A stretch of 46,564 bases of DNA from Deltaproteobacteria bacterium (GTDB taxonomy: Bacteria; Desulfobacterota; DSM-4660; Desulfatiglandales; B25-G16). Below are positions 21,065 through 23,908 of the stretch, piece after piece. Location: NCBI GenBank assembly GCA_019310725.1, contig JAFDDT010000003.1, positions 1 through 46,564 of the forward strand, in the 5' to 3' direction. Below the pieces are notes generated by a model. It was given only the letters and a program-made list of their open reading frames with translations, had not been told where the DNA came from and ran no database searches. Every line of letters begins with the position of its first letter. The first letter of the stretch is position 1. The position numbers and the translations under genes were made by a program.

Positions 21065-21270
21065 ATAGCGCTTCTACAAATCTCGCACCAGCATTTCCTT
21101 TGGCCCGATATGGCATGTTCTGTCTAAGAAACCCGAGTCTGCTTCAGAAAACCCAAACCACACATACTGTGCTATGCCACTATCCTATTGGCCCTTTTTT
21201 AGTCCCTTACAAATGGAATTGTGCCCAAAATGGTCACGATTTTTTCCTGGAAAAGACCTGCTGGTCAGAA

Positions 21271-21346
21271 GATTTAGGGATTGAGGGATTACATTAAGCA
21301 GATTGTTTACAATTCGTTGATTCCTCAATCCGTAATTTCTCAATTC
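21271..21346. repeat. Octamer-periodic inverted repeat (GGATTGAGG type)
   Basis: GATTTAGGGATTGAGGGATTA (21271-21291) faces TGATTCCTCAATCCGTAATTTCTCAATTCC (about 21319-21348); the arms show ~8-nt internal periodicity. Confidence 0.55.
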
Positions 21347-21484
21347 CGGTTTATCCGGGTTAGGAAATCTAAACCCAGCCCTTTGATGGTAGGCTATCGC
21401 TAAAAAAATCGAAAAAGATTAAAGTTTTCCTCAAAAGATGCCGATAGGCTATGTGGATTGTTGTAAAATGTTGTGATTTTGCTG

Positions 21485-21565
21485 AAGGGCAAACCTTCCG
21501 AAAGGTTGGGACGCAAAGCCTCCGACTTAGATCAGCTTGAGGTGACAAGGTAGCGGGGCTGCTAA
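21485..21565 (+). promoter_or_regulatory. Cyclic di-GMP-I (GEMM-I) riboswitch aptamer
   Basis: AGGGCAAACCTTCCGAAAGGTTGGGACGCAAAGCCTCCGACTTAG...GGTAGCGGGGCTGCT reproduces the GEMM-I core: GNRA-capped P2 hairpin, GGGACGCAAAGCCUCCG, GGUAGCGGGG. Confidence 0.93.
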
Positions 21566-21576
21566 GCAAACGAAAC

Positions 21577-21615
21577 AAATAAACCCGCTTCTTGCCCCCA
21601 GAGGTGGGTTTATTT
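21577..21615 (+). terminator. Hairpin in the expression platform downstream of the c-di-GMP riboswitch
   Basis: AAATAAACCC (21577-21586) / GGGTTTATTT (21606-21615), directly after the aptamer and before the 21665 start codon. Confidence 0.7.
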
Positions 21616-21664
21616 ATGCAGCTTCTCCAAAACGATCAACATCTCGCAATTTTGGTGAGAACAC

Positions 21665-22012
21665 ATGAAAATTACCGAAACCGCCAGCTCCATTAGGCAA
21701 CAACAGCCTGGGCAATTCAGGAAACCAGAAGACGGTAGCGCACCGTTTACTCATGTGAACGACCAAAAGCTGGTTACCACAAAGGACCAGAAAGGATACT
21801 CTGTTTACGTCAGTAACGAGAAGCTCGTAGCCCCGGACAGGGTGATAGAATCTGATTTCCCCAAGCTCTTTGATTTTGATGCCGGGGTGCAATTCAGTCT
21901 TGAAAAACTGAGTCGGACTCCCAGGGATGAAGACATTCACCCACAATATGACAAGGCCGCAAAACCAGAGATAGTGACCAAAAAGAAATCGATCATTGAT
22001 CAGTGGGTCTGA
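21665..22012 (+). CDS. Hypothetical protein under c-di-GMP riboswitch control
   Basis: 115 aa ORF directly downstream of the GEMM-I aptamer and terminator; no family recognised. Confidence 0.7.
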   Translation: MKITETASSIRQQQPGQFRKPEDGSAPFTHVNDQKLVTTKDQKGYSVYVSNEKLVAPDRVIESDFPKLFDFDAGVQFSLEKLSRTPRDEDIHPQYDKAAKPEIVTKKKSIIDQWV

Positions 22013-22168: not shown

Positions 22169-22564
22169 ATGTTCATGAAAAGCAAAACATACAAACCAGG
22201 AGAAATCATAATCCAAGAAGGGGAGATGGGAAGAGACCTCTATGTTTTGAATGACGGTGTTGTTGAAATATCAACTAAGGAAGACAATGGAAGTGTTATT
22301 CTGAACGAAATTGAGCCCCCACAAATTCTTGGAGAACTTTCTTTTTTGACTGGTCTTCCGAGGACAGCGACAGCAAAAGCGAAGACAAATACAGAGCTAT
22401 ATATCTTCAGATACGAGAATTTGGAAGGGCAAATTGCGGAATTACCTAAGAGTATTAAGCCAATCATAAATACACTCATTAACCGCGTCAGGGCTCAGGA
22501 CAGAAGGATTGTAGAGTTGGAAGAGGAGATGTTAACGTTAAAGAGAAAACTACTAACATCGTAA
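22169..22564 (+). CDS. Cyclic nucleotide-binding (Crp-like effector) domain protein without HTH
   Basis: YKPGEIIIQEGEMGRDLYVLNDGVVEIS...PPQILGELSFLTGLPRTATAKAKTNTELYIF; short, ends in a coiled coil. Confidence 0.88.
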   Translation: MFMKSKTYKPGEIIIQEGEMGRDLYVLNDGVVEISTKEDNGSVILNEIEPPQILGELSFLTGLPRTATAKAKTNTELYIFRYENLEGQIAELPKSIKPIINTLINRVRAQDRRIVELEEEMLTLKRKLLTS

Positions 22565-23044: not shown

Positions 23045-23908
23045 TTGAGAAATCTGATGGCCCAAAAGTCCCTCATTGAGCTCATTGAGGAAACACTTGA
23101 TCGTGAAGAGATTGAGCTCCCTATCTTTAATCAAGTCGCCCTGAAACTCCAGCAGCAGCTTACAAGGGGCGATTACAGCCTGGCTGGGATTGCCAGAATC
23201 ATACATAAGGATCAGGGACTTGCCTCTGACGTCCTAAAAATGGCCAACTCCGTTTTTTACGCTGGTGTAAAACCTGTCAAAACCATTCAGGAGGCTACCG
23301 TGCGTCTGGGGGGAAAGACTATTTTCAATCTGGTCACCGCAGTAACCCAAAAACAGCTCTACCGCGTTCACAAAAAGAAATATGATTACTGGGCCAAACC
23401 GCTCTGGAGCCATGCCCTTGGTGTTGCCTATGCTGCTCGCTGGCTTTCACGCCACCTGGGTATGGATCAATTTGTTGACGAAGCATTTATGGCAGGCCTG
23501 CTTCATGACATTGGAAAGCTGCTTCTCCTCAAGGTAGTCGAGGATCTCGATGGAGCTGAAGTAACCCAAGACGATATCTCAAAAGATCTCGTTGATGATA
23601 TTTTGGAGACCATGCACACCTATCACGGAGAACGGCTCATGAGAGGCATGAATATCCCAGATGTGTATTGCAATGCAGCCGCGATGCACCATGATCCAGA
23701 CGTTAGTGCTGAAGATAGCATCCTAAATCTAGTAAGACTGGGAAATCTCGCTTGTCGTAAGGTTGGCATTGGGCTTAAACATGATCCTGAGCTCCTCCTT
23801 GAGACTACATCAGAGGTGATAAACCTCAATGTGACGGATCGTGAATTGGATGGCTTGCACGTAAGGTTGGAAGAATATGATGAGTGGCTGGGGAACTTTT
23901 TAGCTTAA
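23045..23908 (+). CDS. HDOD domain protein
   Basis: LPIFNQVALKLQQQLTRGDYSLAGIARIIHKDQGLASDVLKMANSVFYAG...IQEATVRLGGKTIFNLV...FMAGLLHDIGKLLLL. Confidence 0.93.
   Translation: MRNLMAQKSLIELIEETLDREEIELPIFNQVALKLQQQLTRGDYSLAGIARIIHKDQGLASDVLKMANSVFYAGVKPVKTIQEATVRLGGKTIFNLVTAVTQKQLYRVHKKKYDYWAKPLWSHALGVAYAARWLSRHLGMDQFVDEAFMAGLLHDIGKLLLLKVVEDLDGAEVTQDDISKDLVDDILETMHTYHGERLMRGMNIPDVYCNAAAMHHDPDVSAEDSILNLVRLGNLACRKVGIGLKHDPELLLETTSEVINLNVTDRELDGLHVRLEEYDEWLGNFLA

Follow-up and report, generated by a model that had tools for sequence, protein, structure and literature searches.

Many c-di-GMP-I (GEMM-I) riboswitches precede genes of unknown function. Among those described, Cd1 of Clostridioides difficile acts on the flgB operon as an OFF switch,(PMC6366702) with a T+H terminator and a T+A antiterminator.(PMC9262584) The seven functional class I switches of this organism, the flagellar one included, are described as uniformly OFF, and the authors caution against extrapolation.(PMC6366702) The switch of pilM, where the terminator is built from the aptamer 3′ strand, is ON.(PMC9262584) In Geobacter aptamers an A at position 20 confers selectivity for cyclic AMP-GMP (cAG), and the change A20G confers selectivity for c-di-GMP.(PMC6456294) The consensus for sigma-28 promoters is TAAAGTTT-n11-GCCGATAA.(PMC2859248)

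The window, by which is meant the whole 46,564-nucleotide stretch of DNA analyzed here, carries on its forward strand an RF01051 match at 21478-21566 (64.8 bits, E 1.5e-10, 46.6-kb window vs Rfam), the alignment spanning model positions 1-87 in full and the gathering threshold of the covariance model being 35 bits. An earlier sequence-only reading had called a near-textbook GEMM-I aptamer here, and this above-threshold match bears it out, except that the start proposed at that time, 21485, is 7 nt late. No second Rfam family reached its own cut-off in the whole-window scan. The aptamer, near-invariant in sequence across four genomes, is itself an ordinary c-di-GMP-I riboswitch; the novelty lies in the protein it controls. 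New beyond the earlier reading are an orphan protein family with a distant homologue, a sigma-28-type promoter, and a potential pairing between the terminator 5′ arm and the P3 3′ strand of the aptamer. We lean towards regarding the locus as a FliA-driven, c-di-GMP-repressed, monocistronic gene for a small motility-phase protein. The aptamer, the terminator and the promoter-like site are established as sequence elements; the motility role of the protein is inferred.

Promoter, terminator and predicted direction of the switch

The promoter-like site, TAAAGTTT-n12-GCCGATAG at 21420-21447 (+), possesses 15 of the 16 bases of the sigma-28 (FliA) consensus; no other site of this type on either strand of the window scores as high, the runner-up reaching 13/16. 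Its spacer is n12, versus n11 in E. coli. It is conserved in G001-G003, and the version in G139, a genome from another class, is TCAAGTTT-n12-GCCGATAT (14/16); all five genomes with an assembled leader have a sigma-28-type site just upstream of it. In G139 about 11 nt separate the end of the site from the conserved aptamer core, which leaves scant room for P1. The pattern TAAAG-N14-16-GCCGATA occurs eight times in G000 versus twice for the reversed control. FliA (TIGR02479) was found over cut-off in G000, G003, G004, G008, G009 and G139, and G000 encodes two flagellins. No flagellar gene adjoins the 115-aa gene. We infer that FliA uses the site at 21420-21447.

Just upstream of the promoter, approximately 130 bp of the window (21220-21340) are missing from G002 and G003. 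This segment contains a 16-nt imperfect inverted repeat (21274-21289 / 21320-21335) and is perhaps a small inserted repeat element.

Elsewhere in the same family, sigma-28-like sites (14-15/16) precede the GEMM-I aptamers of L017 (FlgG-like rod protein), L020 (126-aa protein) and L010 (HDOD protein). No such site was found before the GEMM-I aptamers of Ig/FN3-like extracellular, PAS-GGDEF and minor-pilin genes of this family, and the MAG containing the L020 cassette (80% complete) has no FliA over cut-off. Within the genus of the window, the n12-spaced site is also seen upstream of a Flg_bb_rod protein gene and of HDOD genes. A stand-alone 117-aa Flg_bb_rod/Flg_bbr_C protein has both a sigma-28 site and GEMM-I upstream at L017 (G009), and at L068 in another genus (G003) a sigma-28-like site without a GEMM-I match. 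In several genomes of the genus a 417-aa HDOD protein (L055, L066, L071) has a sigma-28-like site 69 nt upstream; HDOD proteins turn up repeatedly in the family close to GEMM-I and sigma-28 sites, also at L010 and at window position 23045.

The hairpin placed at 21577-21615 (+) by the sequence-only reading proved exact in position. Its MFE fold has a 16-bp stem (5′ arm 21577-21592, loop 21593-21599, 3′ arm 21600-21615), with local folding z-scores of -3.9 to -5.0 (mean about -4.4) in four orthologous sequences, and a U-rich TTTATTTAT-like stretch follows it, partly within the stem. A terminator scan supports this structure as an intrinsic terminator, and G139 has an equivalent hairpin. Neither arm of the terminator overlaps the aptamer. 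Within the 5′ arm, CCCGCT (21584-21589) is complementary to AGCGGG (21552-21557, +), the 3′ strand of aptamer P3 and its predicted antiterminator partner. When the transcript is folded only up to the loop the antiterminator is favored, with 6.8-9.8 expected pairs in the window, G001-G003 and G139. Shuffling of the arms gave p values of 0.013 for the window, 0.063 for G003 and 0.10 for G139; in the same test the signal was absent at three other GEMM-I loci, L010, L017 and L024. Independent covariation for the antiterminator is not claimed, matched and mismatched loci being nearly equal (-12.2 vs -11.3 kcal/mol).

Because the terminator 5′ arm can pair with the P3 3′ strand, a topology shared with Cd1, the flagellar OFF switch, we predict with reasonable confidence that the switch is OFF, c-di-GMP leading to termination; this direction is not secure, since the shuffled-arm test is weak outside the window and fails at the three other loci. 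The opposite arrangement, with c-di-GMP blocking termination and the protein serving a sessile or surface-attached state like the products of GEMM-I-controlled pili and matrix genes, is considered unlikely. GEMM-I terminators of the ON type are known from pilM and pgcA,(PMC9262584, PMC6456294) but the arms of the present terminator are clear of the aptamer, unlike those of pilM, and its G-rich 3′ arm has no complementarity to the aptamer 3′ strand. The weak antiterminator signal at several loci, and the minor pilins and Ig/FN3-type extracellular proteins driven by other GEMM-I loci in the family, would suit an ON switch; the sigma-28 site indicates the motile state instead.

Extent and distribution of the conserved unit

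Downstream of the terminator, an open reading frame at 21665-22012 (+) specifies a 115-aa orphan protein. Its ATG follows, at a distance of 5 nt, the sequence GGTGAG (21654-21659, +), which was read as a probable ribosome-binding site and is conserved in four genomes. The family is found in five genomes of one genus (G000-G004) and in G139, which belongs to another class of the same phylum; the G139 homologue (E 2.2e-37) is likewise 115 aa in length and is 50% identical. In profile or protein searches of 86 genomes of the order/class, about 396 of the phylum and 5 of the class of G139, no homologue beyond G139 was added. When 85,462 GTDB species were scanned for short peptides identical to parts of the window protein, only the four same-genus genomes came up. 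G280 (E 0.005) and G011 (E 0.049) gave weak matches; the former looks like chance and falls in an ORF that we take, from reading it, to be a LysM/NlpC-P60 protein. No homologue was found in viral contigs, plasmids or phages, and a phage or plasmid origin was rejected for want of any match. Among the five genomes of the class of G139 only one carries the gene (L051:6578-6925), a distribution suggestive of horizontal transfer or of repeated loss.

An RF01051 match precedes the gene in G000-G003 and in G139 (73.0 bits), and riboswitch and terminator together precede it in five of the five genomes with an assembled leader; G004, where a 100-N assembly gap spans the N-terminus and the leader, was left out of this count. 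Whether homologues share the riboswitch had been posed as a check on the sequence-only reading, and in every checkable case they do. In G139 the gene lies alone between unrelated genes, presumably hydrogenase/NADH-dehydrogenase-like ones together with an ORF that is likewise unrelated; its stop codon is directly followed by a strong hairpin and a T-run. For these two reasons the conserved unit is judged to be the leader plus one gene.

The next gene in the window (22175-22564, +; start at 22169 or 22175) encodes, as had been surmised, a lone cNMP-binding domain (PF00027, 8.3e-21). Since the G139 homologue stands alone without a cNMP gene, this gene probably lies outside the switch unit; together with the HDOD and kinase genes of the window it represents genus-level synteny. 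That the riboswitch controls a longer operon of 115-aa protein, cNMP-binding protein, HDOD protein and kinase, with the 115-aa protein as a minor leader, seems to us improbable: the gene order is kept in four or five genomes of the genus and the terminator scan found no clear + strand terminator between 22012 and 22175, but that gap is long and fast-diverging, and in G139 riboswitch and gene occur by themselves with the hairpin and T-run closing the unit. Further downstream, between the cNMP and HDOD genes, the segment 22780-22900 shows >35% divergence plus indels, far above its surroundings.

Ligand and coding capacity

The bases expected to contact the ligand are G20, A47 and C92, found within GGC, CGCAAAG and CTGC at the aligned positions, numbering being assigned by alignment to the Rfam consensus. 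Because these bases are canonical, c-di-GMP is the expected ligand of the aptamer at 21478-21566. Membership of the RF03167 variant (c-di-GMP-I-GGC) was rejected, the score being 56.5 bits against a cut-off of 59 and position 47 being A, not G. Sensing of cAG in place of c-di-GMP is decidedly unlikely: numerous GEMM-I aptamers of the Geobacter lineage do sense this dinucleotide,(PMC6456294) but the specificity base here is G and not the A required for GEMM-Ib membership, in all orthologues, and it is just this replacement, A20G, which makes a cAG aptamer selective for c-di-GMP.(PMC6456294) A different base is seen at L012 (G006:C171:1312-1402, minus strand), where a GEMM-I aptamer of 72.6 bits upstream of an Ig/FN3-like extracellular protein has C in place of G at position 20 (AAACGCAAACC); an altered ligand or an assembly error is possible.

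The small gene had been described as belonging to no recognizable family, and this description stands. The frame at 21665-22012 is open in four genomes with neither stop nor indel, and its product has no family match in Pfam, NCBIfam, PHROGs or PDB. Codon usage is coding-like (0.15-0.17 bits per codon vs a coding mean of 0.14), as is GC content by codon position (0.54/0.35/0.53 vs 0.52/0.38/0.49). Comparison of the first 36 codons between the genus and G139 reveals 12 identical, 13 synonymous and 11 non-synonymous, for 25/36 residues in common; the conserved N-terminus reads MKIxE...IRQQQPGQFRxPED and the rest of the protein is fast-evolving. Among pairs of the window, G003 and G002 the pN/pS of the gene is 0.87-1.34; the five neighboring genes have whole-gene values of about 0.1-0.4 and few 115-codon windows >0.8. 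Given a 50%-identical homologue of 115 aa in G139 with synonymous substitutions, the frame reads as a real protein gene of a rare orphan family, and the coding status on which the earlier description depended is upheld by the N-terminal comparison. That the conserved unit is a regulatory RNA with an incidental or decaying ORF is hardly credible, for the missing protein-level constraint within the genus (variable sites 10/17/12 at codon positions 1/2/3, pN/pS about 1, a synonymous/non-synonymous split differing from that of the neighbors with Fisher p 8.6e-5) is outweighed by the equally long homologue in another class, by the 13 of 25 common residues in positions 1-36 that are specified by synonymous codons, by the coding-like composition, and by the lack of conserved RNA structure 3′ of the terminator.

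Several other identities were considered and rejected. An RNA gene in the ORF region was set aside, no conserved structure having been found there. So was a protein encoded by a 163-aa ORF on the opposite strand: codon usage scores lower when read in the antisense frame, and variability peaks at position 2, which is the second base whichever of the two frames is read. FlgM, flagellar rod proteins and other known small flagellar families gave neither a sequence nor a profile match, and hhalign was negative for homology with the proteins of the L017 and L020 cassettes.

The 115-aa protein is polar (GRAVY -0.82), lacks cysteine, and lies near the disorder boundary; an AlphaFold model built from four near-identical sequences was uninformative (pLDDT 42). 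It is probably largely disordered. A small factor that binds a partner or is exported would suit its conserved N-terminus and polar composition better than an enzyme would.

Proposed mechanism and comparison with described systems

In the favored FliA-driven, c-di-GMP-repressed arrangement, RNA polymerase carrying FliA would start at about 21452-21458 once the flagellar regulon is on. At low c-di-GMP the nascent leader would form the antiterminator (21552-21557/21584-21589), allowing read-through into the 115-aa gene; at high c-di-GMP the aptamer would keep the P3 strand, the terminator at 21577-21615 would form, and transcription would stop. The protein would thus be made in the motile state, its function presumably carried by the conserved N-terminal 36 residues; the chain as a whole is small and polar, has no cysteine, and is probably disordered for the most part.

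A motility-phase role is our best guess because of the sigma-28-type promoter upstream. This flagellar-type promoter and the predicted OFF switch both point to production while swimming, and the fact that the whole unit has stayed together in two classes speaks for a genuine protein. The protein may, as the earlier reading had it, be a new c-di-GMP output. More tentatively, the family may represent a new c-di-GMP-gated late motility effector, mostly disordered and made only with FliA active and c-di-GMP low, its leader being one of a few interchangeable "sigma-28 promoter + GEMM-I + terminator" cassettes which place different genes (for the 115-aa protein, a FlgG-like rod protein and HDOD proteins) under a common double gate. 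The data suggest that individual late genes here come under both sigma-28 and a c-di-GMP riboswitch, an arrangement of which no description was found in a limited search of the open-access literature. For uncultured deltaproteobacteria, the 115-aa protein would be a small participant, new and open to testing, in the decision between swimming and settling.

Of the described systems, Cd1 has in common with this locus a terminator outside the aptamer, a 5′ arm able to pair with the aptamer 3′ strand, and a motility context. Cd1 controls an early flagellar operon with sigD, whereas the present riboswitch follows a sigma-28-type promoter and precedes only one small orphan gene, and its OFF action is a prediction. 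The GEMM-Ib (cAG) riboswitches pilM and pgcA of Geobacter, a deltaproteobacterium in the broad sense, likewise combine a GEMM-I aptamer with a transcription terminator; they are cAG-sensing ON switches with A at position 20, where this locus has G, and the pilM terminator uses the aptamer 3′ strand, which the present one does not. The sigma-28 class III flagellar genes share the TAAAGTTT and GCCGATAA elements; this locus differs from them by the n12 spacer, by the riboswitch placed after the promoter, and by a product outside the known flagellar families. By comparison with RF01051 c-di-GMP-I (GEMM-I) riboswitches in general, the aptamer has the same fold, conserved core, GAAA tetraloop and G20/A47/C92 bases and no unusual feature, whereas the gene under its control is new.
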